Below are positions 6,970 through 56,174 of a stretch of DNA of 64,000 nucleotides, piece after piece. The notes beneath the pieces are model-generated. The model did no database searches, had not been told where the DNA came from, and saw nothing but the letters and a program-made list of their open reading frames with translations. The position numbers and the translations under genes are program-made. Source of the stretch: Gemmatimonadota bacterium. GTDB lineage: Bacteria; Gemmatimonadota; Gemmatimonadetes; Longimicrobiales; Gaopeijiaceae. Numbering within the stretch: the first letter of the stretch is position 1; the number at the start of each line of letters is the position of its first letter. The stretch is from contig JAJDXG010000046.1 in assembly GCA_022823365.1 (NCBI GenBank), forward strand, positions 1 to 64,000, given 5' to 3'.

Positions 6970-6973
6970 ATCC

Positions 6974-10454: not shown

Positions 10455-10499
10455 GCTGCCTCCAGATCGGGTCGCGAGCCGACTCGCGGAAGTGTGCCG

Positions 10500-11164: not shown

Positions 11165-11193
11165 GGGCGAAAGAATGGCGGAATGGGATGAGT
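11165..11193 (-). promoter_or_regulatory. Upstream element shared with coiled-coil paralogue A (copy 2)
   Basis: Same 29-nt element as at 5655, 131 bases upstream of paralogue B. The core GAATGGCGGAATGGG is identical in the two copies, although the DNA between element and start codon has diverged. That favours functional conservation. Confidence 0.35.
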
Positions 11194-11303
11194 CGGCGCA
11201 TCGCGGCTTCGCAGGTGGCGGTGATCGAGCCGGCACGGCAGTTTCCACCTTACGTGCGTTGCGCGGCTGCAATGAGGCGCTCCGTTCAAAGGGGGATGCA
11301 TCG

Positions 11304-14185: not shown

Positions 14186-14236
14186 GGAGGACCGCACGCG
14201 CCTTGGCATCCCGAACCCGAAAGGATGGGCACAACC

Positions 14237-14261
14237 CAACTCTGACGTAACGTCAGGGTTG
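14237..14261. promoter_or_regulatory. 25-bp palindrome, copy 2
   Basis: Left arm CAACTCTGACGT, central A at 14249, right arm complementary at all 12 positions if one T-G pair is allowed. It lies 51 bases after the Mo-hydroxylase stop and 115 bases before the propeller gene. Same arrangement as the copy at 3228, with no T-run following. Confidence 0.55.
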
Positions 14262-14376
14262 GGGCGACGATGGGCAGTGTAACCCGCTTGACCCGTCCAA
14301 CCCCCGCTTGCTTGTCGTGCACTTCCGCATCCGGGTAGCTTGAGCGCGCTGATTTGACGCTCCCCTGAAACCCAGG

Positions 14377-17300
14377 ATGGCCGCCGTGATGCGTCCCGCA
14401 CTCAAGCCGTTTCTCCTCGTCGTAACGCTCTCCGCAATCGCACCCGCCCTGACGGACGCGCCGTTCGCCGCGCGGGTCTCGTCTCTCGCCGAAAACATGA
14501 ACGTGGACATCGCGGGCCTGGCCCCGCTTACATCCGCGCTCCACGCGCAGGACCCGCAGGTGGTGCTCGACTCCGCCTTCCTCGCCGGCTATTCCTGGCG
14601 CAACCTCGGCCCGGACCGGGGCGGCCGCTCCATCGCGGTCAGCGGGGTCAAGGGCCGGCCGCAGGAAGCCTATTTCGGCGCCACCGGAGGGGGCCTCTGG
14701 AAGACGGTCGACGGGGGCGACAACTGGTTCCCGGTCACTGACTTCAAGATCAACTCGGCGTCCGTGGGCGCCGTGGCGGTGGCCGAGACCGACCCGGACC
14801 TCGTCTTCATCGGCACGGGCGAGACCTGCATTCGCGGCAACATCCTGCCCGGCGATGGCGTCTACCGGAGCCGCGACGCGGGCGAGACCTGGGAGCACGT
14901 CGGGTTCTCCGAGTCGGACGGCATCTCCAAGATCCGCATCCACCCGACCGATCCGGACATCATCTATGTGGCGTCCTTCGGGAAGTACGGGGTGCCGAGC
15001 GAGGAACGCGGCGTCTTCAGGAGCACCGACGGGGGCGACAGCTGGGAGAGGATCCTCTTCCGCGACGAGCGCACCGGCGCCATCGATATCGCGCTCGACC
15101 GCAACAACCCGGACGTGCTCTACGCGGCGCTCTGGGAGGCCTTCCGCAAGGAGTACACGATGTCCTCCGGAGGGCCGGGCAGCGGCATGTTCAAGAGCGC
15201 CGACGGCGGGACGACGTGGACCGAGATGACGCGCAATCCGGGGATGCCGCCCGAGGGCGTCGTGGGCAAGATCGGGCTAGCGGTCTCAAGCGCGAATTCG
15301 GACCGCGTCTACGCCCTCTTCGAGCACGACGACGGAGGGCTCTTCCAGAGCGATGACGGGGGCGAGAGCTGGGAGCTCATCAACGACGAGCGCCGCATCC
15401 GCCAGCGCGCCTTCTACTACACGCACGTCTTCGCCGACCACCACGACGAGGACGTGGTCTACGTGCAGAACACGTCGTTCTTCCGCTCGACCGACGGCGG
15501 CGCCACCTACGACGTCATCAACAACGGGACCCACGTCGACTTCCACGACTTCTGGATCGACCCCGACGACCCCGCGCACGTCGTGGTCGCGAACGACGGC
15601 GGCGGTGCGGTCAGCTTCACGACCGGCAGCGAGTGGACCGACCAGGAGTTCTCGACGGCCCAGTTCTACCACGGCGTCACGACGGCGCACATCCCGTTCC
15701 ACATCTGCGGCTCGCAGCAGGACAACAGCACGCTCTGCCTGCCCTCGGACTGGAACGCGGGGCGCTTCGCCTCGGCGCTGGCCGACACCGCCGGTGACTC
15801 CGGCGCCCGGGTGCCCGACATCACCGCGGGCTCGATGGACGTGTACTACCGGGCCGGTGGCGGGGAGCCGGGCTACATCGCGCCCGACCCCACGGACCTC
15901 GACGTCTTCTTCTCGGGCACCAACAACGGCCGCTACATCGACAGGTTCAACCGGCGCCTGGGCACCTCGCGCGAGGTCAACCCCTACCCCTGGTTCTACT
16001 CCGGGGAGCCGGCCATCGACATGGTCGAGCGCTGGCAATGGACCTTTCCCATCATCTTCTCGCCCATCGACCCCAACGTGCTGTACGCCTCCTCGAACCG
16101 GCTCTGGCGCACCACCGACGGCGGCACCAACTGGGAGGCGCTGAGCCCCGACCTCACCCGCGCCGACCCCATGACGCTGGGCCGTTCCGGAGGGCCGATC
16201 ACCGGTGACATGAACGGGCCGGAGGTCTACGCGACGATCTTCGCGGTCGGGCCCGGCAAGGTGGACATCGACGTGATCTGGACGGGCTCGGATGACGGGC
16301 TCGTGCACGTGACGCGCGACGGCGGCGCGAACTGGACCAACGTGACGCCCCCGGACATGCCGGACTTCGGGCGCGTAAGCCTGGTCGACGCCTCGGCGTT
16401 CGACGCGAGGAAGGCTTATGTATCGGCGCGCCGGCCGCTACTCGATGATTTTCGGCCCCATATATGGAAGACCGATGATTTCGGGGAGTCCTGGACGCGA
16501 ATCGTTGACGGTATCCGCGGCGACGCCTACGTGAACTCGATCCGCGAGGACCCGAACCGGGCCGGCCTGCTCTACGCCGGCACCAACCACGGCGTCTACA
16601 TCTCCTACGACGACGGCGGCTCCTGGCAGGAACTGAACCCGGACCTGCCCGACATGCCGATCACGGACGTGATCCCCGAGCACGACGAGCTGGCGATGGC
16701 GAGCCACGGGCGCGGCTTCTGGATCCTCGATAACGTCGCGCCGTTGCGGCAGCTGACGCCCGGGACGACTGCGGAGGACCTGGTGCTGTTCGACCCGGCC
16801 GCCGCGTACCGCTCGGCCAACGGGGTCGTGTTGTCGTGGTGGCTTGGGGATGACCCCGGGGAGGCGACGCTCGAGATCATGGACGCGTCGGGCGATGTGG
16901 TGCGCACCTTCGATCCCGCCGTGGAGGGCGAGGAGCGCGACCGCTGGATGGGCCCGGCGCTGCCGATGGAGGCCGGCCTGAACCGCCTGCGCTGGGATCT
17001 CCGCACCGACCCCGCCGCGTCCTTCCCCGGGATGGTCCTCTGGGGCGTCGCCACCATGGCGCCCGCGGTGCCGCCGGGAACCTACACGGCGCGCCTGACC
17101 GTGGACGGCCGCGCGGAGACGACCGAGGTGGAGGTGCGGCGGCATCCGTGGATTACGGACGTGACGGACGAGGACCTGGTCGCCCAGTACGAGTTCGGCG
17201 TGCAGATCCGCGACCGGGTGCACGCGGCCAACTCGGCGGTGATCGCCATCCGGAACGTGAAGGCCCAGCTGGACGACCGGCTGGAGGCGTCGGACGACGA

Positions 17301-41198: not shown

Positions 41199-44100
41199 AC
41201 GGGAACTCGCGCAGGAGACCCGACGACTCCGACATCGTCGCCCGCATTTCCGCGGTGGTGCACGAGCCCTTCGCCGAGGCCTGGCGGGGCTACGAAGAGA
41301 AAGAGTGGGATCCCATTCGCCGGACGCTGGAGGACGCCGCGGGTGCGCATGAGCGGGCACTCGACGCCCTCTCCTTCGAGGGATCGGAGGGTGCCGGTCC
41401 CGGCGCTGGAGAGCGGAAAGGGCTCGCGGGGGAGGGAGTCCGGGGCACGCCTGCCGGCGAGACGGGCCGGGATGCACCCGGAGCGCCGGCGCGGTATCGC
41501 GACGCAGTCTCCGAAGAGGTCATTGAGCCCCTCCGTGTAGTGCTGGCTCGATCGGGTGCCGCGACCAGGCTTGCGCGATCGTTCGCCTCGGCCACCGATG
41601 GCGCGCGGGCGGCGGTGGCGCGGCTGCCGGCGTTCCTCCAGGCGCCGGCTTCGGGGTCCCCTGCCGCGCGCATCTCCGGTGTCGGTACCATCCGCACGAT
41701 CAAGCGAGCCGCCGCGCGCGTGCTCGGCCCGGTCGTGTGGCGGGGCCGGATGCGCCGTGTCCCGGTGGCCAGGCTGGCCCGCCAGCACCTCGACCAGGTA
41801 GTGCTGCGCGCGCAGGGGAGCGCCTTCAGGCAAAGCCAGCACGACCGCGCGGAATGGCTCGCGCACCTCGAGCGCGCGTGTTCGGAGTGGGCCGGCGCGG
41901 TGCTGCGGCCGGCCCGCGCTGTGGATGCGGCCGAGCGGACGGCCGATCCGGAGGCGGAGCCGCTGCCTGACGAAACACGGATCCACCACACCGCCGGAGC
42001 GGCGCTTCAGGCCGAACTGCAGGTGCTCGCCGACGAGGTCGAACGGGTCTGCGGGAGCTCCCGGAGCGCCCACTTCCGCGGCCTGGAGGAGTTGCTCGCG
42101 GCCTCGGTCGCCGTGGCCGGCACCTTCGCGGCGGACCCTCCTTCCAGCCGCCCCCGCGCGGGACTCCAACCGGAGCTGCCCGCGCAATGGGATGCTTGGG
42201 CGGAAGGAGCGGCTGCCCGGCTGGAGTTGTACCAGGGTCTGGTTGCCATGCGGCGGGACGTCGATGGGATTCTCGGCGAGCTGCGGGGCGGCTGGTCGGG
42301 CATCATCCGGAACGCGGATGCGGTGCTGGCGGACGTAGCGGCCGAACTGGGCCGGGGCCGGGAGCGTGCGGAGGGCCTGTCCGCCGGCGAAGCGGAACTG
42401 CCGGCGATGCTCGAAGCCGAACGGCAACGGACCGACCGCGCGCTCGCGCTCGTCCAGGGCAGCCTGCCGGAGCCCGATGCCGTGTTCGAGGCGCTGATCG
42501 GCGCGGTGGAGGAGGGAATCCACGCCCTCGACCAGCTTCGGGAGCGGATGCCCGGAGCCCTGACCCTCCACGACATCCCGGCGCCCGGAGATGTCCCGCG
42601 AAAGCCGGGGGCCGACGCCCGAAGCGTGCGCCTCCGCGAGACCTTCCTGCGTGCGTTCGATCTCCTGCGCAGGGAACGCATGCGCGCCGCCCCCTCGGCC
42701 ATCCGCGAAGCCATGCGCAAGGCACACCTGGAGGCGGCCGAACTCCGGGAGGTGTCGGGATACGGATACGAGGCAGCGGTCGCGGAGGCGAAGGATCGGC
42801 GCGATCCGGAAACGCCGCACCCAACCGCGCTGGTCGTCAACGCCCTCACCCGTGCCGGCAACAAGGCGGCCGCCACGCGCCGACTGCTGCGCGAAGCCCT
42901 CACAACGGCGGAAGACAGGTTCGCGGCCGAGATCCGAGGCGGTTCGCGCCAGCTGATCGAGCAGGCCACCGCGGACCGGATGACGGCGGGCTTTCTCGAG
43001 ACTCGCACGTTCCTGGCGGCCGGGTTCGCGCGGGTGTGGAAGCGGATGCGGCGGATTTCCGCTCAGGTCGGCGCCCGAGCCACCGCGGCTGCATCGTGGG
43101 TCCTGGCCCTCCTTCGGCAACTGGGCGCGAGCCTGGGTCTCGGTCCGGCGCCCCGGGCCGTCGCCGATCGCCGCGAACACTCCCTCGCCCACGCGGAGGC
43201 GTACCCGCGCGCGCTCCCGGTCGTATACAGGCGCCTCTTCTCGCTCGAGCCGCTCACCGATGGGCGGCTGCTGGCGGGACGGGAAGACGCCCTGGCCGCG
43301 GTGGTGTCGGCCTGGGGCCGGCGAGCGACCGGGGAGCCGAGGTCCCTGGTCGTCATCGCATCGCCCGGCGCGGGCGTGACCAGTTTCCTGAACGTCGTGG
43401 CGAGCCGCCTCTCCGAAGAGGCCCCGGACGGGGTGCGGTGGACGTTAGCCACGCGTGTCCGGACAGAAGCACGTCTCGCGGAATGTCTGGCCGGATGGCT
43501 GGGTCTCGAGGAAGCGAGCGATCTCGACTCCCTAGCGGAGCGTGTGCTGAAGGCCCCACCTGGGTCGATTCCCGGCTTCGTCATCCTGGAGGCGACGGAA
43601 CACCTTCACATGCGCACGCCCGCGGGGAGCAGGCTGTTCGAGCGGCTTCTGACCTTCATGTCGCGCACCGAATCGAGCGTGTTCTGGATCACGGCCATGA
43701 CCTCGTCGGCCTGGCAACTGGTCGAGAAGCGAGCGCCGGCGTTCGTGCACGACATCGAGCGTGTGAAGCTGGGAGAGCTGTCGCCCGAAGAGCTGAAGCA
43801 GGCCGTTCTGGCCCGGCACCGGCTGAGCGGTCTTCCCATGCGCTTCGCCGAACCACATGACGGGCGCGCGGCGTTGCGGCGCCGGACCCGCCGGCTGCGG
43901 GGCGCGGAGAAGCAGGAACGGCTCGTCGAGGCGGACTACTTCCAGCGCCTGCACCGCGCCTCTCAGGGATCGGTTCGCCTGGCGCTCTTCTACTGGCTGC
44001 GTACGGCGGACTTCGCCTCGACCCCGGGCAGCCTCCTCGTGCAACCGCTGAGCACGCTGGATTTGGGAATCGAGGACCTGGATCGAACGCAAAGCTTCGC

Positions 44101-44383
44101 TCTCAAGGCCATCCTCGACCACGGCACCCTGACCGTAGACGAGTACTGTGACGTTGCGCGGACCGCGGGCCCCGAGAGCCTGCACATCCTCCGGTCACTG
44201 GAGGAGTTCCGGGTGATCGAGAGGGTCGAGGACGCGATCGAGAAAGTCGGGGACGCGGGCAGGGAGACGCCGGGCGCCGAGAAGGCGACAGGAGACAGCA
44301 CCGATCCGTCCCGCTATCGCATCCGTCCGCTCATGGTCGGCCCGGTCTCGGCGCACCTGAGGTCAAGCAACATCCTGCACTAG
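41195..44383 (+). CDS. Large STAND/AAA-like protein with degenerate P-loop, coupled to MscS
   Basis: 1062 residues. Residues 1-650 are mostly alpha-helical and Arg/Ala/Glu-rich with no recognised domain. A nucleotide-binding-like domain follows: LVVIASPGAGVTSFLNVVAS has the Walker A position at 723-730 but with Val728 where Lys is required. The Walker B strand is FVILEATEHL, with Glu799 in place of Asp, and a sensor-like SSVFWITAMTSSAW follows. The C-terminal 150 residues look like a winged helix (LDHGTLTVDEYCDVAR, SLHILRSLEEFRVIERV). It overlaps the MscS gene, so it may gate or sense through the channel. Its 3' end is duplicated at 49534-49896. Confidence 0.7.
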   Translation: MNGNSRRRPDDSDIVARISAVVHEPFAEAWRGYEEKEWDPIRRTLEDAAGAHERALDALSFEGSEGAGPGAGERKGLAGEGVRGTPAGETGRDAPGAPARYRDAVSEEVIEPLRVVLARSGAATRLARSFASATDGARAAVARLPAFLQAPASGSPAARISGVGTIRTIKRAAARVLGPVVWRGRMRRVPVARLARQHLDQVVLRAQGSAFRQSQHDRAEWLAHLERACSEWAGAVLRPARAVDAAERTADPEAEPLPDETRIHHTAGAALQAELQVLADEVERVCGSSRSAHFRGLEELLAASVAVAGTFAADPPSSRPRAGLQPELPAQWDAWAEGAAARLELYQGLVAMRRDVDGILGELRGGWSGIIRNADAVLADVAAELGRGRERAEGLSAGEAELPAMLEAERQRTDRALALVQGSLPEPDAVFEALIGAVEEGIHALDQLRERMPGALTLHDIPAPGDVPRKPGADARSVRLRETFLRAFDLLRRERMRAAPSAIREAMRKAHLEAAELREVSGYGYEAAVAEAKDRRDPETPHPTALVVNALTRAGNKAAATRRLLREALTTAEDRFAAEIRGGSRQLIEQATADRMTAGFLETRTFLAAGFARVWKRMRRISAQVGARATAAASWVLALLRQLGASLGLGPAPRAVADRREHSLAHAEAYPRALPVVYRRLFSLEPLTDGRLLAGREDALAAVVSAWGRRATGEPRSLVVIASPGAGVTSFLNVVASRLSEEAPDGVRWTLATRVRTEARLAECLAGWLGLEEASDLDSLAERVLKAPPGSIPGFVILEATEHLHMRTPAGSRLFERLLTFMSRTESSVFWITAMTSSAWQLVEKRAPAFVHDIERVKLGELSPEELKQAVLARHRLSGLPMRFAEPHDGRAALRRRTRRLRGAEKQERLVEADYFQRLHRASQGSVRLALFYWLRTADFASTPGSLLVQPLSTLDLGIEDLDRTQSFALKAILDHGTLTVDEYCDVARTAGPESLHILRSLEEFRVIERVEDAIEKVGDAGRETPGAEKATGDSTDPSRYRIRPLMVGPVSAHLRSSNILH
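44003..44383 (+). repeat. Duplicated ATPase 3' end, copy 1
   Basis: The last 380 bases of the ATPase gene recur at 49534-49896 in the same orientation with high identity, including a stretch of about 90 bases with a single mismatch (44136-44225). The two copies bracket 5.2 kb of accessory genes. Confidence 0.85.
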
Positions 44384-44597
44384 CTGAGCGAACTAGTTAC
44401 CGGGCTGCACGATCTGCGCTTTCCGCCTTTGGACGGCATCTACCTCCGTCGTCCAGAGACAGCGGGGATCGCCTCAGTTCGGGGCTTCCGTTTCCCCCTC
44501 ACGCCAACGGTTGGTCACGGCATCTCCAAGAGCCGCGAGAACACAGGTCCCTTTCTCCGTCTCGGCTCGCAGCCCTTCCTGCAGCCATCACATCTGC

Positions 44598-47500
44598 TCA
44601 AACATCGTCAGCGCGGCGGTCCTCGCGATCGGCGTCTCGGCGATAGGATTTCGCGATTCCTCGTAGCATCTGTGCCGTCCGGGGATGCGTAGCTCGCGCC
44701 GCGATGGCGTAGCCCTCGTATCGTTGGGCGAGCTCTCGCTCGGCCACACCTCCCGCCGCCGCATCCTTGGTCACCACACCACGGCTATTGTGGACGCCGA
44801 CCGCGACCCCCGTCTCCAGGTCGGCGTTCGCCACCGCCTCAATCACCTCTCGTACAGCGGCGCACGGCCACAATCCATCCCGGCCGTGAGGACTCCCGCT
44901 CAACATCTGTCCAGCGACCGTCAAGCCGACTGGGAGCCGTCCCACGGCGTCGAGACCGGCTTGGGCGTCCGTAATCCACCTGTGGAGCAGGCGGTGGCTA
45001 ACCCGGCCGTTGTCCTCACCGGGCAGCGTTCGCCAGGAAGACAGCAGGGAGTAGGCACCTCGAGCGATCCGTCTCGTACGTTCGTCCAGTTTCTCCCGAT
45101 CACCTTCCGGTGAGTACGCAAGCGCCACGACCTCCACGAAGAACGCCGCGTCTTCGGCCAGGATCTCGTGCAGTGCACCCGGCGGTCGTTCATGCCGGGA
45201 TACATGGGGCAGCAAGCCCCACTCCAAACGGGCCAGATCCTTACTGTCATAATCGGCTGGCGCGAGCGTGTCGAGCAGGGACGCGATGTCTCCCCCGAGT
45301 TGCGGATTCGGAGTGTCGCACTTCCCGTCAGCCGAGACGATGGCGCGGAGTACATCCGCAATCACTCCTGGCGAGACGAGATTCCTTGTGACCCGCTCAT
45401 CGTGCGCGAGGACGCTCGCGGCGTCGAACGGCCGACCGGCGTTGACCAGGCATGACGCCCCCTGGGCCAGATCCCGGTCCCGTGCACATCCAGAAAACAC
45501 CTCGACCTTGCGCCAGTATTCCTCGCGTACGGCCTCGCCGCGTCGCGCGGCCGCCTCCCAAGTCTCGCTGCAGAAAGGCAGGATCATCAGAAGCGCTACT
45601 TCCTGGTCGGCGGAAAGTGTCAACTCTCCGCGGTCCAATTGCCGGATCACCCACGACTTGCCACGCACGCGATAGCGCCCCGACGCGAATCCGCGCGCGA
45701 ACCGGCTTAGCGCTGTCTCCGCGTGGGCCAGGTACTGAGGCAACAGGGCATGGGCATCCACCAGCCCGTTGGGCATGCTGCCGATGGCGAATCCCAAGTC
45801 GTCGGGCCTGTCAACCGCTCCGGCGAGTGCGGCAAGAGCCGACAGTCCGCCTTGCTCGAATACCGCTGCCGCAGCCTCCATCTGCTGCTCTACCTGGGGC
45901 ACGCCATCCGCGAAGAGCCAGGCGAAGCGTGTGACTGGATCGGACGGATGGAGCCGAATCAGGACGCCCTGAAGCCTTGTCAGGTCAGCCTCCGGCATCG
46001 CCCACCGTGCGGTCTTGTACCGCCGGTGTCGGTCCAAAGTAGACCTGACCGCCCGCCAGATGGCCGCACATGCGTTCTCGGTGTACTCGTCGCGATTCAG
46101 GTTCTCCAGTTCCGTCATCACATGGTCGCGCTCGCCAGCGGGCAGCCGCTCGAGCCGTTCGATCAGGTCTGTCCACCGCTGACCGCATGGTCCCGCATCG
46201 TCCACCATCCGTGTGACGACCTCGGACGTAGTCCGGGCACGATCCTCCCAAGTCGCGTGCGGCGTCTCGTCGGGTGCCCACTCACGCACCTTCGGCTTCG
46301 AAGCTGGAAACCCGACCGCGTGCGGCTCGGGCAGCATGGAACGCATCACGCACCAAGCCGCATCACCGTGCGAACTGCGCAACTGGTCGAGGGTCGCGAG
46401 CCGTTCACTCAGCGATGCGCTGGTCTCCGGGAGCCAGCTCCGGAACACGGCCTTGAGCACGGACGACGGACGGGGACGGGAAACTCCATAGCCATCGTTG
46501 TCCTCCCGAAATTCTGACGCCGGATCCAGCCGATCGAGGCGTGCGAGAAGCGGTACCACCAATCCGAAGTGATCCGGGCACCACGCCAACACTTGCATCG
46601 CCACCATGAGCCCGCGAAAGCCTTGCGGGTGAAACAGCGCCATACCACTTCCGGCAAACAGGTTGGCCAGCACTGGCTCAGGACCTTGCAGACCTTGCTC
46701 AACGGCGCGTACAAAGTCATGAGGAGCGGCCTCGGCGAGCAGGGGCAGGTTCTCGCCCAGCGACGCCCAGATGCGCCAGTCATCATTGGCTTTCCGGAGG
46801 AGGTCACGAATCATGCCCTCGGCCATCTCACTTCCGGAGACCATGGGGCCACCGTGAACCCCCATGACGGCCAGATTCATGGCCAGACCCTCGCGTAGCA
46901 GGTTGGAGTGGTCCCCGTCTTCGCCCCATACGTCCACCATCCACCTCTGTTCAGGCGGGCGATAGTACGCGGATTTCACCTGCCCCAGTACAGATATGAC
47001 GGCTTCATCAAGGAGGCTCAGATCGTCCGGGAGGATGTAGCGATTGAGGAGACGCCAGGCGTCGTGGACCGAGATCAGATACCAGGCATCGCCTCTTTTT
47101 CGGACAAGCGGGTCGGCCGTCATGCTTTGCGGGAGGAGTGTGTCGACCAACTCTTCGTAGGAGTAGCGTCCGAGAGCAGCAACGACCTCGCGGTCCCTGG
47201 GGTTCCCGTCGCTCCACGAGCCCGCCAGAAGTGCAGGTATCACGCTCCGGGCTTCTGAGGGCTTGGACCAGTCGGGCTGACGGACCGCCGGGGTCGCGGC
47301 GCATTGCCGTCGAAACGCGGACATGCTTCCATGGGCAAGTCCCGCCATCTCGCGAGCTCGCTTGTAGGGCATCCCGACACCCTCAAGGGCGCGGGTGGCG
47401 GGCTGGCGACCCACTGGGCCAACAGAGACTACAAGGTCCTGCGGTGCTGGCGTGGTCCCGTCGAGAGGCACGACTACGATGTGCCCAGTCTGCGCACCAG

Positions 47501-48608
47501 CGGACGCCAGATTTCCGGCTTCGAACGTTGGTATCAGTACAAGCGGCCGCTTGGCGGAGATCAAGGACCGCAAGGCATCCGCCGTGTCCACTACCAGGGA
47601 TCCGGCGAATAGACCTTGGGCCTGTTCCGTTCCAAGGGCGAGGGCGGCGCAGTAGAGGCAGGCGACTGCTTCTTCCTGGGATTCGGCCTGAATCGCCCAA
47701 GTCTGGCCGGTTCCCTCCAGTAGCCGCTGACGGATCACTTCGAGCGTCTGGTCCCGACCAGCCAGGACGAACTGGGGCGTCAGAGGTGGACGGGTTCCCC
47801 TGGACCACTCCTCCCACCAGGACTCCAGATCCACCACTTTGGTGGGCCTCTTGCCAATCTGGATCGACAGCCAGACGTGTACCGCGGGAGCGTCGTCGAG
47901 CCAGGCCGCCAGATCGTCTGCATCCAGGACGCGCACCTCACGCCATGGCCCCACGTCGGCCCTTTCCCGGGCCCACTTTTCCTTGTCCCTCCAGCGTCGA
48001 GACGTGACGAATACAAAACTGGCTTCGTCCGCCTGCAGTGGCTCGCTGTTGGTGGACCGGGTCTCCCAGTCATCGTCCGCCTTGCTCTTCGGGTCCTTCG
48101 CCACGCTCATCTCCCAGCCGGATCTGCCCTTGGGGACGAACGGCGAACGCTGCTCAGAGTGAACGATGCCGTCCCATCCGGATAGCTGGACGCCTTCGCT
48201 CGTTCGCACATGCAGCTTGGAGCACCCGACCGCAGTGGCGTGGATGAGCCGCCTCACAAGGAGCGGCAGCATTTCCTGTGCCTCACGCCGATCCGACCAC
48301 TGTTCCAGGTCTGCTGCGTTGCAGAGGGTGTCGCCCAGAATCGCCAGACCCGTTTGGGTGCCCGAGTCCCCGTACGGGGATTGACCATGCGCGGGGTGGC
48401 CACGGCGGTCTCCAACGCCATGCAATGCTCGCTCAATCCTGGCTCGGGTCAGGTCCGAGAGCTCGTCCCGGTTGACGGCCCGGGACACGGTCTGTCGACT
48501 GAGCGAGGTCTTCCTCGCCAACCAGGCCTGCGTAAGCCCCAGCGCCTTGAGCCTCTCCCGAAGCCCGGTTCCATAGCCGGAGACGGTCTGAATGGTTCGA
48601 TCTTCCAT
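44598..48608 (-). CDS. 1336-residue protein: XRE-type HTH plus putative PD-(D/E)XK-like module and helical tail
   Basis: Start ATG 48608 (MEDRTIQTVSG) has GAGG five bases upstream; an earlier ATG at 48629 has no Shine-Dalgarno. Residues 12-60 form a helix-turn-helix (LRERLKALGLTQAWLARKTS, LSRQTVSRAV). Residues about 105-255 carry QLSGWDGIV, FVPKGRSGWEMSVAKDPKSK and SFVFVTSRRWRDKEKW. The Asp...Trp-Glu-x-Ser...Lys spacing suggests a restriction-endonuclease-like fold, but this is inference. The next section (LAGRDQTLEVIRQRLLEG, WAIQAESQEEAVACLY) recalls a degenerate STAND domain. The remaining 900 residues are helical, possibly repeats. I have seen related large proteins in defence islands but cannot name a family. 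Confidence 0.75.
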   Translation of the reverse strand: MEDRTIQTVSGYGTGLRERLKALGLTQAWLARKTSLSRQTVSRAVNRDELSDLTRARIERALHGVGDRRGHPAHGQSPYGDSGTQTGLAILGDTLCNAADLEQWSDRREAQEMLPLLVRRLIHATAVGCSKLHVRTSEGVQLSGWDGIVHSEQRSPFVPKGRSGWEMSVAKDPKSKADDDWETRSTNSEPLQADEASFVFVTSRRWRDKEKWARERADVGPWREVRVLDADDLAAWLDDAPAVHVWLSIQIGKRPTKVVDLESWWEEWSRGTRPPLTPQFVLAGRDQTLEVIRQRLLEGTGQTWAIQAESQEEAVACLYCAALALGTEQAQGLFAGSLVVDTADALRSLISAKRPLVLIPTFEAGNLASAGAQTGHIVVVPLDGTTPAPQDLVVSVGPVGRQPATRALEGVGMPYKRAREMAGLAHGSMSAFRRQCAATPAVRQPDWSKPSEARSVIPALLAGSWSDGNPRDREVVAALGRYSYEELVDTLLPQSMTADPLVRKRGDAWYLISVHDAWRLLNRYILPDDLSLLDEAVISVLGQVKSAYYRPPEQRWMVDVWGEDGDHSNLLREGLAMNLAVMGVHGGPMVSGSEMAEGMIRDLLRKANDDWRIWASLGENLPLLAEAAPHDFVRAVEQGLQGPEPVLANLFAGSGMALFHPQGFRGLMVAMQVLAWCPDHFGLVVPLLARLDRLDPASEFREDNDGYGVSRPRPSSVLKAVFRSWLPETSASLSERLATLDQLRSSHGDAAWCVMRSMLPEPHAVGFPASKPKVREWAPDETPHATWEDRARTTSEVVTRMVDDAGPCGQRWTDLIERLERLPAGERDHVMTELENLNRDEYTENACAAIWRAVRSTLDRHRRYKTARWAMPEADLTRLQGVLIRLHPSDPVTRFAWLFADGVPQVEQQMEAAAAVFEQGGLSALAALAGAVDRPDDLGFAIGSMPNGLVDAHALLPQYLAHAETALSRFARGFASGRYRVRGKSWVIRQLDRGELTLSADQEVALLMILPFCSETWEAAARRGEAVREEYWRKVEVFSGCARDRDLAQGASCLVNAGRPFDAASVLAHDERVTRNLVSPGVIADVLRAIVSADGKCDTPNPQLGGDIASLLDTLAPADYDSKDLARLEWGLLPHVSRHERPPGALHEILAEDAAFFVEVVALAYSPEGDREKLDERTRRIARGAYSLLSSWRTLPGEDNGRVSHRLLHRWITDAQAGLDAVGRLPVGLTVAGQMLSGSPHGRDGLWPCAAVREVIEAVANADLETGVAVGVHNSRGVVTKDAAAGGVAERELAQRYEGYAIAARATHPRTAQMLRGIAKSYRRDADREDRRADDV

Positions 48609-48642
48609 GGTAACCTCGCGTGTGTTCATTTGATCATATGTA

Positions 48643-48670
48643 ACATGTCAACACCTATTAGACACGTCAA
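48643..48670 (-). promoter_or_regulatory. Direct repeats upstream of the large HTH gene
   Basis: ACATGTCAA (48643-48651) and ACACGTCAA (48662-48670) lie 19 bases apart, read TTGACATGT/TTGACGTGT toward the gene, and precede its start by 35-62 bases. They may be operator half-sites for the encoded HTH protein. The locally AT-rich sequence suits a promoter, but no good -10/-35 pair at standard spacing was found. Confidence 0.3.
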
Positions 48671-48837
48671 ATAGTAAAACCGTTGGAATCGGCGGAAGCG
48701 TTCAGGCGCAAGAGTGAGGATGGCGGCGTCGCAGACCGCGACGCCCGAGCTACCAAGGCCGTTCCGTGGCCGGTACGTTATCGTAAAGGGGTTCCCGCGC
48801 GGCGCGGGCAGTTCCACACCCGAAACCCACGACCCAC

Positions 48838-48921
48838 ATGACCGCGCCCCACCTGAACTGGCTCGCCAACTACATCGGGCGCATCGCGGACGACGCTGTC
48901 CCCGGTGTCCCATCCGGCTGA
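48838..48921 (+). pseudogene. N-terminal scrap resembling HsdM (type I methyltransferase)
   Basis: 27 codons from an ATG: MTAPHLNWLANYIGRIADDA then VPGVPSG and stop. HsdM proteins commonly open with x-L-N-W-x-x-N-[FY]-I-W-x-I-A-D-D-V-L-R, so the match is good over about 18 residues and then ends. No further methylase sequence follows. It is taken as what remains of a type I restriction-modification locus replaced by the DUF433 toxin-antitoxin pair. The rest of this 319-base gap (48630-48948) holds no gene. Confidence 0.45.
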
Positions 48922-48948
48922 AGACGACATGGCGAAGGAGGCCGTACC

Positions 48949-49176
48949 ATGACGAACTGGAACGAGTGCCCGGCCGTTGAACGGACACCGGGCCGGGTTA
49001 GCGGAGCCTGGGTCTTTTCGGGCACGCGGATTCCCCTTTTCGCGCTCTACGAGAACCTTGCCGCGGGCGCCACGGTCGAAGAGTTCGTCGAGTGGTTTCC
49101 GGGGGTTGAGGAACGCCAAGTCAGAGCGGTGCTCGAACACGAGGCGCAGACGCTGAGAACGGCGTTGGTCCGTTGA
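48949..49176 (+). CDS. DUF433-family antitoxin (VapB45-like)
   Basis: 75 residues. SGAWVFSGTRIPLFALYENL and EEFVEWFPGVEERQVRAVLE match the DUF433 pattern of a small helix-turn-helix domain paired with PIN-like toxins. GGAGG lies nine bases before the ATG. The stop overlaps the toxin start (TTGA). Expected role: neutralises and represses the adjoining DUF5615 protein. Confidence 0.85.
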   Translation: MTNWNECPAVERTPGRVSGAWVFSGTRIPLFALYENLAAGATVEEFVEWFPGVEERQVRAVLEHEAQTLRTALVR

Positions 49177-49502
49177 AGCTGCTGTTCGATCAGGGCACGC
49201 CCGCGCCTTTGCGGCGACAGTTGCCCGGACACTCCGTGGACACGTTGGCGGAGAAGGGATGGTCGGAGAAGAGCAACGGCGAGTTGCTCGATCTGGCGGA
49301 GCAAGAGGGATACGCGGTTCTGGTAACGACCGACCAGAGTCTGCCCTTTCAACAGAATCTGGCCCGGTGGCGAATCGGGCTCGTCGTGCTGCTGTCCACG
49401 GATTGGTCTCAGATTCGCCTCCGCACCCGCGAGATCGCCAGGGGGATCGAGGCGGTGCGTCCGGGCCACGCCATCGAAGTACCGATCCCACGTCCCGGGT
49501 GA
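49173..49502 (+). CDS. DUF5615 PIN-like toxin (VapC45-like)
   Basis: 109 residues. It begins MKLLFDQGTPAPLRRQL, with the first PIN aspartate at position 6, and has YAVLVTTDQSLPFQQNL as the second acidic segment (VTTDxxxxxQ). The start is a TTG overlapping the antitoxin stop (TTGA), which should limit toxin output relative to antitoxin. Family members are predicted ribonucleases. The pair sits between the hsdM scrap and the duplicated ATPase 3' end. Confidence 0.82.
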   Translation: MKLLFDQGTPAPLRRQLPGHSVDTLAEKGWSEKSNGELLDLAEQEGYAVLVTTDQSLPFQQNLARWRIGLVVLLSTDWSQIRLRTREIARGIEAVRPGHAIEVPIPRPG

Positions 49503-49533
49503 GATGACCACGGACACGTCCGAGTGAGGCCTT

Positions 49534-49896
49534 GACTACGGCGCCGCCCTTCCGACTGCGGGCAGCCTCCTCGTGCAACCGTTGACCACGCTGGATTCGG
49601 GAATCGAGAACCTTGACCGGACGCAGAGCTTCGTCCTCAAGGCCATCCTCGACCACGCAACCTGGACGGTAGACGAGTACTGTGACGTTGCGCGGACTGC
49701 GGGCCCCGAGAGCCTGCACATCCTCCGGTCACTGGAGGAGTTCCGGGTGATCGAGAGGGTCGGGGGCGCGGCCGGGGAGAAGCCGGCCGCAGAGAAAGTG
49801 GCAGGGGACAGCGCCGCGCGGTCCCGCTATCGCATCCGCCCGCTCATGATCGGCTCGGTTACGGCCCACCTGAGGTCACGCAACAACCTGCACTAG
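49534..49896 (+). pseudogene. Truncated second copy of the ATPase gene (3' end only)
   Basis: Reads LTTLDSGIENLDRTQSFVLK, AILDHATWTVDEYCDVARTA and GPESLHILRSLEEFRVIERV, ending RSRNNLH-stop. It is the same C-terminal winged-helix region as in the full-length ATPase (44003-44383). No nucleotide-binding domain or MscS partner remains. Divergence is concentrated in the linker after IERV. It marks either an ancient tandem duplication of the MscS-ATPase unit or recombination between two such units that trapped cargo genes. Confidence 0.8.
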
Positions 49897-50324
49897 CAGT
49901 CCATGGATGAATCCGCCCGAGCACCGAGAGCGGCGAGGCGCCGGACTCGCAGGTTTCCGATGGAGTGATCACGGCAGGATGTCACGAAAGTTCAACCGGG
50001 GCTGCACGATCTGCCACCCTTGCCGTCCTCGGCCTGTCGATCCGCCGCGTCGGAATCGAAGGAGTATTCGGCACGGAGTGGCGGGAAGCCAGCTCCTCCC
50101 CCACGTGGCTGTGGAAGCCGCCATTAGGTGCTTTCCGGTTTCTCCTGTTGCAGTCGAGGATCCGGCCGGCGTAGGCGGCACCTATGCGACGGCGGAGTCC
50201 CCATGGCGTGACTTGTGCGAGATGGAGGCCGAGCGATCTGCTCCGCTCCCGAGGAATAAATCGAGGCCGACGACGGTATATCGGAAGCTAAGTCCGCGAC
50301 CCTCGTAACCAAGCGGTTCCTCTC
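49897..50324. other. No convincing gene
   Basis: 428 bases between the ATPase remnant and the Shedu stop. A short motif, ACCGGGGCTGCACGATCTGC near 49996, resembles ACCGGGCTGCACGATCTGC after the full-length ATPase gene (near 44399), so the duplication extends past the stop codon with an insertion. Open frames have no coding character. Confidence 0.5.
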
Positions 50325-51422
50325 TCAAGCAAAGATGGCTAGGTTGTCCGATTCGATTTCGGCTCGGCGCGCCAGCATGTCGTATGGCAAGACCTCCATC
50401 CTGTGGAGCGTCAGGTTCAGTTGGTCCAGAATCGTAGCGGCTTCCGGAGTTGGCAGTGAGGATCTGAGTCCTATGATGATCGTTACACGGGGGTTCCTTA
50501 CCTGCTCGACGCCGTACTGAGCCTTCATGGTGCTGTCAGGTGTGATAGCCAGCCATTCCCGGTACAGGTGAGCCTGCGCAAGGGCTTGCCCGAGTTCCGA
50601 CGACAGAGAGTAGGAGCTGGGGTGCGTCGGGTCTCCCCCGAGGAATCGAATGATCTTGCAGTCCGGACGCTTGAGTTCAAGCAGATCGTGATATCCGTCG
50701 TGACGCCGAACCATGAAGTCGACTTTGCCTCGCGGGATTTTATGCGCGGGCAGCACTTGGGCGTACCTGAACCCCAGCAGGAAAGGCTTTCCCTCGATGT
50801 ACTTCTGGAGTTCAGGTTCCGTGACGTCCGCGCGCAACAGCTCCCGGAATTCGCGCGCAGCATTCCGGAGGTCCTCGATTCGTACCGAGAGGCGTTTGGA
50901 CATTGCGCCAGACGCCGCTTCCCGTCCCTGCGACGTACTGGTCAGTTCGTCGGCCAGCTTCTCGATTACCCCTGCTTCTGCGTCCTTCATGATTCGCTTG
51001 ATGAGATCTAGAATGGCGTCTTCTCTGACCATATCTTGGGAGCGAAGAGGCTCGTGGCCTTCGGGAGGAAACGCCATCTGTAGAATCGCGAGTGCGTCTT
51101 CCAGAACCGCGATCCGTTCGGTGTTGCGCTCGGCCCATCTTACCAATCTCTCCGTCGTAATTGAGGTTGCCAGAACCTCGTCCAGTTGATGGTCGTCGGT
51201 AACGCGCTTGAGAGCCCGGCGCGCAGCAGTGACGGCGTTGAGCCCGGAATCGTCGGCAAAGTAGCCTAACGCCCTCTTGGTGGGCTTGTATTCCTGATAC
51301 CTCTGAATCTGAGTGACCACGATATAGTGCTTGTCCTCGGTGAGGAGTGGCCCCTCGTCTACATCGTCCTGGACGGTTAGGAGCAGAACAGGCTTTTTCC
51401 CTGCCGGACATCCATCCTTCAC
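50325..51422 (-). CDS. sduA: Shedu-type nuclease (DUF4263)
   Basis: 365 residues. The C-terminal half is a DUF4263 PD-(D/E)XK nuclease: ELQKYIEGKPFLL (203-216), KVDFMVRRHDGYHDLLELKR (233-252) with Asp235, Glu249 and Lys251 as the D...ExK set, and QALAQAHLYREWL. Shedu is a known single-gene antiphage system whose nuclease degrades invading DNA. The start is the first available codon, GTG at 51422; AGGAG touches it directly, an unlikely spacing. The same frame is open upstream for 77 codons beyond one TAG, so the true N terminus may be interrupted. It lies at the 3' end of a leftward cluster with a helicase. Confidence 0.82.
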   Translation of the reverse strand: MKDGCPAGKKPVLLLTVQDDVDEGPLLTEDKHYIVVTQIQRYQEYKPTKRALGYFADDSGLNAVTAARRALKRVTDDHQLDEVLATSITTERLVRWAERNTERIAVLEDALAILQMAFPPEGHEPLRSQDMVREDAILDLIKRIMKDAEAGVIEKLADELTSTSQGREAASGAMSKRLSVRIEDLRNAAREFRELLRADVTEPELQKYIEGKPFLLGFRYAQVLPAHKIPRGKVDFMVRRHDGYHDLLELKRPDCKIIRFLGGDPTHPSSYSLSSELGQALAQAHLYREWLAITPDSTMKAQYGVEQVRNPRVTIIIGLRSSLPTPEAATILDQLNLTLHRMEVLPYDMLARRAEIESDNLAIFA

Positions 51423-51425
51423 CTC

Positions 51426-51659
51426 CTACGCCAAACTCTTGCCCCTGCGAAACGCCGTACGATTGTGCCCGATCACATGACGCCACTCGAAATCGAAGTA
51501 TACGCTTATCCCACCGAGCAGCATTGGGGCGCCAGTTCTCTCCTGCAGCGCTGGTTGCCAGTTCTCCTTGATGTCCGCCAGCGTGCGGTATTCTTCCCGG
51601 TTCATTCGCGGACTCCTATCTCCCAGTGATTTCGCAAAGGAGCCCGACAGTAACGTCAT
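51426..51659 (-). CDS. Small ORF in frame with sduA, possibly its displaced N terminus
   Basis: 77 codons, with an internal Met (51605) opening MNREEYRTLADIKENWQPAL, QERTGAPMLLGGISVYFDFE, WRHVIGHNRTAFRRGKSLA. It ends with TAG, then one GAG codon, then the GTG of sduA in the same frame. If the TAG were sense, the product from 51605 would be about 426 residues, close to the size of described Shedu proteins. It may be a nonsense-split gene, a sequencing error, or an independent small partner translated just before the nuclease. Confidence 0.5.
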   Translation of the reverse strand: MTLLSGSFAKSLGDRSPRMNREEYRTLADIKENWQPALQERTGAPMLLGGISVYFDFEWRHVIGHNRTAFRRGKSLA

Positions 51660-52181
51660 GCGGATCCGGGCCGCAAGCTCGGTCCCGCTCTGTCACCACC
51701 TAGAGGGATCCCGCATAGAGACTCGCGGAGCAGGCTCACGGTAATCGTGTAGGTGCGGATCCATGTGCTCGATGACCCGTGCATCGTCGTCAATCCTCGC
51801 ATCGCTAGTCGCGCGGTTGGAGAGCAGTCCGATCAGGTGCCCGTCGGCGTCCTCCACTCGGAGATGGTCGAAGATCGGATCGCGGTTCCGCGTCCGGACT
51901 TCAGACACGCGATTGCTCGCGCTACATAGCCTGAGTTTGGGGCGTGGAATGGCGATTTGTCCGGTCGTGGAACGGGCGTGAACGTCCCTCGAACCCTGCA
52001 CTCTGCCGCCTTGTATCGGGCTTTCCGGCACGCATCTTGTACGCTCCCGTGAGGGAGGAATCGACTGGAGCGTCCTTTGCTCGAAGCACCTGTCTCGGCT
52101 CCGGAGCGTCTCAGGACGGCTCCGGTGTGCATCGTTCGGCGACGCTTAGACGGCTGTCCGGGCGTGGTCTCAAGCGACCAC
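51660..52181. other. Spacer in the defence cluster with one doubtful ORF
   Basis: 522 bases between the small ORF and the second paralogue. A leftward frame at 51693-52031 (GTG start) reads RDPIFDHLRVEDADGHLIGL, LSNRATSDARIDDDARVIEH in its second half. That looks protein-like, while the first half does not, and there is no Shine-Dalgarno. It may be the tail of a decayed gene. No hairpin or promoter stands out. Confidence 0.35.
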
Positions 52182-52913
52182 CTAACCCCAACTGGGATAC
52201 CACTCGTTGACGTGATCCCACAGGCAACCCACGAACCGATAGTTCCAGTCCGTCGGCGCCGGACCGTTGCGATAGGGGGTCCAAACCGAGCCCGCCTCAG
52301 TGACATAGAACCGACCTCCAAGTCCACCCTTTGCCGCCCAGATTGCGTCTGCCAACCGCTCATAGGTGCGCGTGTGAGTGTCGAGGTACTCGCGGTGACG
52401 GACTCTGACGAATTCGTCCTCGTTCTGGAGGACCGTGGGCCGGTAAATGCGAAGGCCTCTTCGTCCTCGCCGAACGTCCAGCCAATACGGTATCCCACAG
52501 CGAGGGCCGCCCCAGTCGTCGCTAGGGGCCAACCGCCCCTTCGGCCGGTGCGGGGGGCGATTATCCCACACCCCATCGAAGAGTCCGAACCGGAATCGGC
52601 ATCGTGGGAACTCGCCGACGTAACGCAGTTCGACGTGTTCGTCGGACCAGATCGGCTTAAGGACCTGGTTGTACTCGTTGAAGTAGAAGGATCCACCTCG
52701 CCGCCCGTGGTGTTGCAGGGCTACCCGATTCACCGCGGCTACGAGCTGCGGACACTGGAGAACGGTCGGCACCCATGCGGACGCCAGTTCATGGACTGGC
52801 CGATACCATACCATCACCGTCCACCGGTTCCGGTGCCGCTTCACATGATACTTCCGGTCTTGCCCGGGCAGGGAGACACCATACCCCTTCCAGAGATCAC
52901 CCTCGCGGAGCAT
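52182..52913 (-). CDS. Unknown protein with two hairpin modules, paralogue 2 of the helicase cluster
   Basis: 243 residues from the ATG at 52913, which overlaps the previous gene by 17 bases. Two copies of a beta-rich module are visible: GGSFYFNEYNQVLKPIW...ELRYVGEFPRCRFRF (73-108) and GGRFYVTEAGSVWTP...YRFVGCL (199-231). Between them lies IPYWLDVRRGRRGLRIYRPT and a helical piece (LDTHTRTYERLADAIWAAKG). Layout and motifs match the neighbouring 226-residue protein, so the two genes arose by duplication. No catalytic motif is apparent. The cluster context suggests a DNA/RNA-recognition or assembly role, by inference only. Confidence 0.7.
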   Translation of the reverse strand: MLREGDLWKGYGVSLPGQDRKYHVKRHRNRWTVMVWYRPVHELASAWVPTVLQCPQLVAAVNRVALQHHGRRGGSFYFNEYNQVLKPIWSDEHVELRYVGEFPRCRFRFGLFDGVWDNRPPHRPKGRLAPSDDWGGPRCGIPYWLDVRRGRRGLRIYRPTVLQNEDEFVRVRHREYLDTHTRTYERLADAIWAAKGGLGGRFYVTEAGSVWTPYRNGPAPTDWNYRFVGCLWDHVNEWYPSWG

Positions 52914-53577
52914 CGGGTTCGTGCTTTTCGAACCAAGGATCCGATTCGACATCGACTCGGCCGACGAAAACCGGCATCTGCGCTCCTTCCGTCCGAGGCA
53001 GGAAGGCGAGCCCGTGCTCATTGACGTAGAATCGGCCCGCCCGGCGGCCGGGACGCGCGCGGGCAAACGCGCTCAGGAGACTGGCGGCCGGATGATCAAG
53101 AGTCTGCGTCTCGTAAACTGCCGCAAAGTCCTCCCATGAGATGGTCTCGCGAGAGATCGTTCCGACCGAGAGGTCGTACTTGTACCTCATCCCGACCTCC
53201 TGATGCTTCCACTCGTCTCCAGGGCGGAGGCCGTCGCTCGAGGCGTTGTCGAAGACCCGGCCGCGGAACGAGAACCGAAAACGCAGGTCGGGGAACTCTC
53301 CGAGATACAGGACTTCGCGGAACCCCTCCTCTCCCAGCACGGGTTTGAGCACTTGCTTCCATTCATTGACGAAGAACGGACCTCCGTCGGGAATTCGTGA
53401 CTCGATCTCTGGATGGGGGACACGGGAGAAGAGAGTGACTTCGGCGTCCCGCTCCCGATCCGGGATCACGCACGCGACACGCCGACCCAGCTTTGGGTGG
53501 TATCGCACGGCGTACTTGTGGGCCCGGATCGTAGCGGGGGCGTATCCCAGCCACTCCGGTGTTCGATCATCTGCCAT
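52897..53577 (-). CDS. Unknown protein with two hairpin modules, paralogue 1 of the helicase cluster
   Basis: 226 residues. Modules are GGPFFVNEWKQVLKPVL...EVLYLGEFPDLRFRF (65-102) and AGRFYVNEHGLAFLP...VFVGRV (180-208). They are separated by MRYKYDLSVGTISRETISWE and a helical stretch. The ATG at 53577 overlaps the helicase 3' end by 11 bases, so translation is coupled to the helicase. The closest visible relative is the next gene; a fifth copy of the module occurs near the helicase C terminus. No enzyme signature was found. I do not recognise the family. Confidence 0.7.
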   Translation of the reverse strand: MADDRTPEWLGYAPATIRAHKYAVRYHPKLGRRVACVIPDRERDAEVTLFSRVPHPEIESRIPDGGPFFVNEWKQVLKPVLGEEGFREVLYLGEFPDLRFRFSFRGRVFDNASSDGLRPGDEWKHQEVGMRYKYDLSVGTISRETISWEDFAAVYETQTLDHPAASLLSAFARARPGRRAGRFYVNEHGLAFLPRTEGAQMPVFVGRVDVESDPWFEKHEPDAPRG

Positions 53578-55729
53578 GTAAGAGTTCCTTTCTCAAGTCG
53601 TCGAACGATTCCTTCCCCAAGGGCCATCCATCTTCTTCGCCCAGCCTCCCAAGCCGGCACTCCCGCCCGCTCACGCGCACGAGCACGCCCCTGCCGCGTG
53701 TCAACTCGACCTTGTGAATGGGCCCAACCTCGCCCTGCCGAACCCCCCGGACAAGCGCCAGAATCCGCCGAGCGGCCGGGGAACGCATGTCGTGTTTGTT
53801 CCCAGCACCACTGGCGACCACGACGCTTCCCCCGTGTCGCGCAGATACCTTGAGCGGGATTCGCTCCTGTGGCCGATGCCACTCAATGGGTTGCGAAAGA
53901 CGGCCGCCGTAGAATACCTGCCAGCGGCCTTCGGCGTTGCGTGAGGGAACAAGCACGTGATTGCGGCGGGGTGTTACCCGGATCAACCCACCGCCTGGCC
54001 GAATCTGCCGGATAGCTTCGACAACAGCGGCGGGGATCGCGCCGATGTCTCGCGTGCCGTACCCGCCCGCCCTCAGGTTGCGATAGACGTTCCCCTGAGT
54101 GTCGATGGACAGTTCATGCCCCTCGTCCTTGCCCGGATACGGCTCTCCGACCTCCAACCGATCCTCGACAAGGTCTGAATCGGAGGGGAGGGGCTTGTGC
54201 GGAGGACCGTCCTGCGCCTCCCACTGCTTGGGGCCTAGCCACCTTCGGTACTCGACGCTTCCAACGCCCAGAATCTGCTCGAAGTTCATGCGCCGGAAGA
54301 TATGCTCGTCGACCGACTCACCAACGTACAGGTTGTAGATTCGTGACGTTTCCTTACCGGCATATCGTCGCATCACCCGGCCGAGAGATTGTATTTTCTG
54401 GCGCGGAGAGGTGGAGGCCGCGACGATCACGCCAATATCCGTCGCCGGGGCGTTGACGCCTTCGATCAGCGCCTTGACCGAGAGCAGGATCGGCGCGGTG
54501 CCGCGAAGGTACAGCGCGAGCGAGCGCTCGCGCTGCGACTCGGTAATACCTGTATGATCCAGGACGACCGACCTTCCGTCGCGAACGAGGCCCTCGAACA
54601 GTCGGTTGACCTCCGAAATCCGCTCGTGGAACGCCATGATCCGGACATCACCGGCACTGCATTCCTCGTCGAGGATGGTAACGAAACACCTCCGTCTATT
54701 CTTGGCCCGGTAAAGGATCTCCTTTCGCTCGTTCGTGAGCGCTTCGTACCGTGCTGCGAGCTTCCTTGCCTTCGACCTTCCTCGGGCAAGGGACTTGATG
54801 AGCCGAAACTCGTTCGGCACCCCTGAGCGTCCCTTGATGTATGCTGGCTCTTGGCGTAGACGGTCGCGTACATGTTTCAGTTCCCGACTGAGCCTGTCGT
54901 ATGTTCGGCGCTCCCCGCGCGTCAGGCGTACAGCTACGTGGATCAACTCGAACGGAGGGACAATCCCCTCTTCGAGCGCCTGTCGGAAGGTGAGTTCGTA
55001 GATGATCGAGCCAAGCTCCTCGTTGATCACGTCGGACACGTCGTGGCTCGACACCGCGCCGCTCGCCTGTCTTCCTACATCCCGCTCGGGCGTCGCGGAA
55101 AGACCTAGGCAGAAACGGCGTGGGACCTCGAAGATCTTCCTGTTCTCCGCTGATCCGGCACGGTGACACTCGTCAACGACCAGGAAGTGGGTGGACCGAA
55201 GCTCCTTGCTGCGGAGAGGGCGACCGAGCGCGGTCCGGGCAGAGTTCACGACATAGATCATGACGCGCCGGCCCTCGCGGAAACTGTCCTTATGCTCCCC
55301 ACTCCGCCGACCGACCCATGCCGTTGGGAGGCCGAGAGTGCAGGTGAGTTCATGATACCACTGATCGAGTAACACGCGTGTGGGAACCACGATGCTCGCC
55401 CGAACGGCTTGGTCCTCTCGGAATAGCCGCTCAAGGCACATCAGCGCGAGCATCGTCTTACCGGCGCCGGTCACCACCTTGACGACGCCTCGCCGCCCGT
55501 TCCGTTCCCATGCTTCGAGGGCGTCGGCTTGCCAGGGATAGGGCGGCGTTTTCTTGGGGATACCCCACGACCCGGACAGCACCTGGTCTCCAGATGCCCG
55601 ATCATCCGAGCCAGGCGCCTCAGGGGAAACCAGAATCCGCCGTAGAAGGTCGAGCTGGTGCCAATGCAACTCATCGGCCTGAGTGAAGGCTGGATGCTTC
55701 GGTCCTACCTTGGCCTCGGTGTCTTCCAC
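53567..55729 (-). CDS. SF2 DECH-box helicase with C-terminal hairpin module
   Basis: 720 residues. Motifs in order: PWQADALEAWERNGRRG (Q-like, 65-81), Walker A VVTGAGKT (85-92), VVPTRVLLDQW (Ia), DECH at 186-189, LGLSATPERD (III, 208-217), and motif VI QSLGRVMRR (447-455). A helical insert with many Arg/Lys (about 270-350) separates the two RecA lobes. The tail (500-720) contains GGGLIRVTPRRNHVLVPS...VFYGGRL (579-611), the module shared with the two following genes. The GTG at 55729 is the start used. Predicted role: ATP-driven DNA or RNA translocation. It heads the leftward cluster that ends with the Shedu nuclease. Confidence 0.88.
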   Translation of the reverse strand: MEDTEAKVGPKHPAFTQADELHWHQLDLLRRILVSPEAPGSDDRASGDQVLSGSWGIPKKTPPYPWQADALEAWERNGRRGVVKVVTGAGKTMLALMCLERLFREDQAVRASIVVPTRVLLDQWYHELTCTLGLPTAWVGRRSGEHKDSFREGRRVMIYVVNSARTALGRPLRSKELRSTHFLVVDECHRAGSAENRKIFEVPRRFCLGLSATPERDVGRQASGAVSSHDVSDVINEELGSIIYELTFRQALEEGIVPPFELIHVAVRLTRGERRTYDRLSRELKHVRDRLRQEPAYIKGRSGVPNEFRLIKSLARGRSKARKLAARYEALTNERKEILYRAKNRRRCFVTILDEECSAGDVRIMAFHERISEVNRLFEGLVRDGRSVVLDHTGITESQRERSLALYLRGTAPILLSVKALIEGVNAPATDIGVIVAASTSPRQKIQSLGRVMRRYAGKETSRIYNLYVGESVDEHIFRRMNFEQILGVGSVEYRRWLGPKQWEAQDGPPHKPLPSDSDLVEDRLEVGEPYPGKDEGHELSIDTQGNVYRNLRAGGYGTRDIGAIPAAVVEAIRQIRPGGGLIRVTPRRNHVLVPSRNAEGRWQVFYGGRLSQPIEWHRPQERIPLKVSARHGGSVVVASGAGNKHDMRSPAARRILALVRGVRQGEVGPIHKVELTRGRGVLVRVSGRECRLGRLGEEDGWPLGKESFDDLRKELLHGR

Positions 55730-56174
55730 GTTGTTGCCACCCGACTCAACAGTGTCTTATGTAGGTCGCCTGCCGTCCCAACCGGTCGTAGCGCCCGCCA
55801 CATCCACAGGCACGCCGCCTGTTCAGCCTGCTGGTACCCTGACACAATCGGTAACCCAACAGCGGACAGCCCACAAGCTACCCCGAGGGCGACGCGGTCG
55901 GCCGCTAACGAAACCGGACCGGCGCGAGCGACTGGAACGAGATTTCGGTTGGGGAGTCACAAAGTGGACGGTCGGAAGACTGCGCGAACGCCGCTGGAGC
56001 GTAGGTCTCCAGGGGTTCGAAGGGGCGGAGTCCCTCGCCAGCTCAGCGGACGCCCTCGAAGCGGACGCCGAAGATACCGGGGCGGATGGTGCCCGGCACG
56101 TGGTCCGCGCCGGCGGGGTTGGCCGCGTCGGCGGCCGACCGCCGCATCCGGCGCAGCCCGACCTGGACGGGCTG
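55730..56174. other. Intergenic region upstream of the helicase
   Basis: 445 bases. The helicase promoter should lie here, but I find only weak boxes. The stretch GTCTCCAGGGGTTCGAAGGG near 56007 superficially resembles a tRNA T-arm but does not fold as one. Rightward frames here are poor in coding character. The right-hand limit of the accessory island is probably within this gap, because chromosomal-type efflux genes resume at 56175. Confidence 0.4.

Follow-up and report, generated by a model that had tools for sequence, protein, structure and literature searches.

A helicase and two partners built on a shared beta3-alpha-beta3 domain form a conserved, predicted defence cassette in bacteria and archaea

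In the 64,000-nucleotide stretch of Gemmatimonadota DNA analysed here (the window), three overlapping genes encode an SF2 helicase and two smaller partners, P1 and P2, and this trio is a genuine conserved, co-inherited unit. The trio is probably a defence cassette that stands by itself and has moved horizontally, with a predicted antiviral role. The evidence shown here comprises gene structure, homology, co-inheritance, defence-island context, helicase motifs and a shared module. With slightly less assurance, we favour the more specific reading that the trio represents an undescribed bacterial and archaeal defence system, in which an SF2 helicase and its two partners all share one new beta3-alpha-beta3 domain, present five to six times in each complex, without a nuclease of its own and without a link to the neighbouring Shedu gene. 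As a named system the trio is absent from PADLOC-DB 2.0.0 (2023), and we found no description of it in the open literature; its novelty was judged against those models and open papers.

The coordinates confirm the leftward cluster given in the preliminary description of this DNA (Table 1). In the open reading frames (ORFs), the helicase stop (53567) and the P1 ATG (53577) overlap by 11 bases, the P1 stop (52897) and the P2 ATG (52913) overlap by 17 bases, and a 522-base spacer (51660-52181) lies between P2 and the next leftward ORF. GC content by codon position was of the coding type in the helicase, P1 and P2 alike. The two partners are paralogous, as had been proposed (BLASTP 2e-17, 35% over 146 aa), and neither matched Pfam or PADLOC.

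Table 1. Features of the trio and its surroundings, in window coordinates.
Feature	Position	Strand	Basis
Island between 1062-aa ATPase gene and RND efflux gene	44384..56174		Comparison with five genomes of the genus
DECH SF2 (ResIII/PbeA-like) helicase, 720 aa, first trio gene	53567..55729	-	Pfam, PADLOC, motifs, tree
First C-terminal beta3-alpha-beta3 module of helicase, aa 522-620	53870..54166	-	hmmsearch with module profile
Probable second, diverged helicase module, about aa 625-718	53576..53857	-	Read from the sequence
P1, 226 aa, two modules (53290-53577; 52951-53229)	52897..53577	-	Paralogy with P2, profile match, AlphaFold2
P2, 243 aa, two modules (52605-52913; 52218-52532)	52182..52913	-	Paralogy with P1, module profile
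Shedu (SduA) gene split by in-frame TAG (51426-51428); neighbour, outside trio	50325..51659	-	PF14082, PADLOC, alignment

Scanning with a helicase alignment yielded 65 loci, and a tree was built from 64 helicases. The trio helicases formed one clade of 24 (support 99/98). P1/P2 homologues were present within the fetched locus of 22 of the 24 clade members, in two copies in 20 of them, and at none of the 40 loci of helicases outside the clade. Partner presence on the tree required one gain, a value as low as this being reached in 0 of 500 shuffles, and the trio genes in the clade were mostly spaced by 4-base overlaps or by gaps of a few bases. In agreement, five plasmid records carried a trio-type helicase and exactly the same five carried a B partner (see below). 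A search with P1 itself found only the window among 395 genomes of the phylum, and likewise nothing besides the window among plasmids, because the relatives are too diverged for this query; the helicase query recovered them. The hosts span Gemmatimonadota, Acidimicrobiia, Acidobacteria, Lentisphaerae, haloarchaea, Methanomassiliicoccales and Poseidoniales. Several copies lie on archaeal plasmids. Viral contigs and phages yielded no trio, and a phage origin was rejected on this result.

The trio occurs in two layouts. In layout 1 the gene order is A-B-helicase and the helicase measures about 960-1120 aa; this layout occurs in Gemmatimonadota, two genomes of the window's genus among them, as well as in Methanomassiliicoccales, Poseidoniales and haloarchaea. 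Layout 2 has the order helicase-P1-P2 and is found in the window, Acidimicrobiia (L022) and Lentisphaerae (L028 and L084); besides the different gene order, its helicase (about 720 aa) is without a roughly 300-aa N-terminal region that is present in layout 1. One locus (L023) carries a single partner and another (L024) the helicase alone, and the full trio may thus not always be required. In six haloarchaeal layout-1 loci (L034, L035, L037, L039, L042 and L045), B lies about 6 kb from the A-helicase pair. Conserved divergent genes separate the two parts there, encoding a DrmD-like SNF2 helicase, a protein of roughly 1.1 kaa and a protein of roughly 310 aa; the latter two had no Pfam or PADLOC match in the one member examined. 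This haloarchaeal set resembles an expanded version of the trio system with six genes.

The window helicase matched ResIII (6.7e-23) and Helicase_C (5.9e-09) in Pfam and, in addition to the DECH motif already reported, carries GAGKT, SAT and QSLGRVMRR motifs. ResIII-type SF2 proteins translocate on DNA. The nearest named family is PbeA/dnd_restrict_1, and this applies to the helicase core only (PADLOC PbeA, 6.4e-60, aa 58-471); XPB-type repair helicases are also similar. Only aa 58-720 could be aligned to PbeA, the N-terminal region of which is absent. No nuclease domain was recognised in the helicase, P1 or P2. Pfam gave no PLDc match in the window helicase or in three layout-1 helicases, and a motif search found no HKD motif in the window helicase.

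On profile matches and predicted structures, P1, P2 and the helicase C-terminus are all built from one repeated beta3-alpha-beta3 module. Profile comparison of the layout-2 partners (P1/P2) gave 99.0% with the A family and 96.9% with the B family, and A against B gave 99.6%. The A family also matched the helicase alignment (hhalign, 93.7%) at the module of aa 522-620, and the region of the L022 helicase equivalent to the putative second module (aa 553-691) was matched by the module profile. Beta3-alpha-beta3 units were seen in the AlphaFold2 models of P1 (pLDDT 83, pTM 0.83) and of a single module (pLDDT 83, pTM 0.73). Five modules are recognised in layout 1. The family (29 members) had no credible match in NCBIfam, Pfam, PADLOC or among PDB sequences, and its fold had no significant structural match in searches of the PDB and a viral library. 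Csx19 of type III-D CRISPR was rejected as an identity for P2, being a single weak match (E 0.012) from 1 of the 29 members, and Azaca (ZacABC) was likewise set aside, with none among the PADLOC matches listed.

The trio of the window lies in an 11.8-kb island that is absent from five other genomes of the genus (G003, G004, G006, G007 and G009), where the flanking genes are 0.1-1.8 kb apart, and the GC content of the island is lower than that of its flanks. A second, partial copy of the 3' end of the 1062-aa ATPase gene (~366 bp, 83% identical DNA) was also observed; the copies, at 49553-49897 and 44019-44384, place the second 5.5 kb downstream of the first, and the duplication suggests that the end of the ATPase gene has been a target of insertion more than once. 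Between them lie a gene for a 1343-aa protein (44598-48629, reverse strand), in which an N-terminal HTH alone was recognised and which had no PADLOC match, and DUF433 and DUF5615 (PIN-like) genes (48949-49502, forward strand) that overlap by a few bases and resemble a VapBC-type toxin-antitoxin pair. An hsdM scrap had also been reported here; a whole-genome search with PF02384 gave no match within the window.

Elsewhere, the trio is found mostly in defence islands, a statement that rests on named examples, not on a statistic. Its neighbours include CBASS, Gabija (in the same archaeal island), pAgo, type I restriction-modification (R-M), a D12 methyltransferase, a BsuBI/PstI-type R-M pair, type II methyltransferases and N4/N6 methyltransferases. 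At L025 and L026, CBASS with a SMODS cyclase (about 5.5-7.2 kb) lies directly upstream of the trio, and a SLATT_4 effector of CBASS was confirmed in L026/L015. At L023 (Acidobacterium), SspBCD and DndB phosphorothioation genes (1792-8881 and 9582-12600) are divergent from the trio helicase. At the contig end of L029 in G006 (14025-15272), a second, fragmentary PbeA-like helicase was observed beside an N4/N6 methyltransferase downstream of a layout-1 trio. The trio borders at L084 and L022 contain no recognisable defence gene. The preliminary description had held that mainly housekeeping contexts would speak against a defence role: the named examples are mostly defence neighbours, but L022 and L084 sit among ordinary genes.

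These neighbours bear on the alternative that the trio is the restriction half of a modification-linked system, with a methyltransferase or phosphorothioation enzymes marking self. Modification genes do occur near the trio at several loci (L025/L026/L029, L030/L032, L036, L060, L073, L012/L080 and, with SspBCD, L023), and PbeA is the family closest to the helicase core; however, these genes are mutually unrelated and differ by locus, and the searches made detected none next to the trio of the window, nor in L084, L022 and L028. We therefore regard this arrangement as unlikely. Less likely again is a DNA repair or plasmid/replicon maintenance complex without an antiviral role. The similarity to XPB-type helicases and the plasmid-borne archaeal copies would fit such a function, but the trio is rare (P1 in 1 of 395 phylum genomes), patchy and located in an island, and unrelated defence systems recur as its company.

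Among known systems, PbeABCD (a CxC-ABC-ATPase/DndE system with an HKD-SF2 helicase; PMC6459918, PMC10853773) is the closest comparison. Both are multi-gene, helicase-centred cassettes, the core of the trio helicase has PbeA/dnd_restrict_1 as its nearest family, and phosphorothioation genes (SspBCD) adjoin one trio locus. In contrast to PbeA, with its N-terminal PLD/HKD nuclease domain, the trio helicases examined are without one, and for this reason the trio was not filed as Pbe. The partners also differ, since those of the trio belong to the unnamed module family, and PADLOC found no match to PbeB, PbeC (CxC ABC ATPase) or PbeD (DndE) among the window genes. According to one report, PbeABCD acts without cutting viral DNA directly (PMC6459918), whereas others have argued for cleavage by its HKD domain (PMC10853773). 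Hachiman (HamA nuclease and HamB helicase) likewise pairs an SF2 helicase with small partner gene(s) in defence islands, but HamB matches to the window genes were marginal (about 1e-4 in PADLOC) and P1 and P2 had no PADLOC match. The type I/III restriction subunits HsdR and Res share a ResIII-type ATP-dependent DNA translocase with the trio, which in turn has no nuclease domain found and no fixed methyltransferase or specificity subunit.

A further alternative is that the modules close into a ring resembling a sliding clamp, with 2+2+2 copies in layout 2, and so hold the helicase on the DNA. PCNA or DnaN made up most of the top PDB fold-search (Foldseek) matches of the two-module and single-module models, and several of the matches in the viral library. 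None of these had a significant E-value, and with TM scores of 0.2-0.38 and rmsd of about 9-19 Å the structures were not superposable. Moreover, hhalign of the module against PCNA and DnaN gave 0.1-0.6%, compared with 35.9% for PCNA against DnaN (the PCNA set containing a few wrong frames), and the five recognised modules of layout 1 do not suit such a ring. The clamp resemblance is thus a lead only, and the ring itself appears quite improbable, somewhat more so than the repair complex.

The nuclease gene next to P2 is an independent bystander of the trio, not a component. Its assignment as a DUF4263 nuclease was borne out: the ORF at 50325-51422 scored 39.1 bits against SduA_C (PF14082; cut-off 27) and 1.3e-20 against PADLOC SduA, and alignment placed the catalytic D, E and K of the PD-(D/E)XK core in conserved columns. 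The small ORF described as separate (77 aa, 51426-51659) is instead the 5' end of the same gene, cut off by a single TAG, because the two ORFs share a reading frame and an uninterrupted 442-aa relative from another genome of the family (L090:8622-9950) aligns across the TAG without gaps (40% identical). The neighbour gene agrees with both Shedu models, but in the window it is not intact over its full length. The premature stop, in the N-terminal, sensor-side part, would mean that the gene is broken or that the sequence contains an error. The N-terminal domains of Shedu are thought to set specificity (PMC12904381).

PF14082 was found in 3 of 27 trio genomes or records, compared with 6 of 249 phylum genomes; the three cases are the window, an archaeon in which it lies ~10 kb away on the opposite strand, and one on a different contig. 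No trio locus besides the window has an adjacent Shedu, and the closest full-length relative found adjoins an integrase (tyrosine recombinase) and other R-M-like genes, without a trio. Thus, of the co-occurrence raised in the preliminary description, the part joining the helicase to both paralogues stands, and DUF4263 proved unlinked; of its undescribed defence system, a conserved trio remains, mostly in defence islands and absent from PADLOC-DB 2023, with Shedu removed as a component. That the trio recognises and unwinds DNA for Shedu to cut is very improbable: the two share a strand, 522 bases apart, and the catalytic residues are kept, but other trio loci have no adjacent Shedu, a Shedu relative occurs without a trio and the frame is broken.

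Returning to the trio as a defence cassette of its own, we infer the following for complex formation, DNA binding, antiviral effect and mode of action. The helicase, P1 and P2 would be co-translated and probably form one complex. The helicase is predicted to be an ATP-driven SF2 DNA translocase, and its C-terminal modules, with the double-module P1 and P2, could assemble five to six copies of the domain into a beta-rich platform. This platform may bind DNA or a phage-specific DNA feature, DNA binding being a guess given a fold with no significant structural match. Recognition would be coupled to ATP-driven translocation or unwinding, and the outcome might be that replication of the invader is blocked, or that its DNA is exposed to nucleases supplied in trans.

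Together, these results indicate that the trio is probably a defence cassette, described in no library or open paper searched. The Shedu case illustrates that a neighbouring gene can be mistaken for a system component, a matter settled here by the co-inheritance test. If the trio protects cells, it would add a helicase-centred system that uses a new repeated domain and whose hosts range over several bacterial phyla, halophilic archaea and other archaea. It would then also be a clear candidate for the class that, as PbeABCD is claimed to do (PMC6459918), halts viral DNA with no obvious nuclease.
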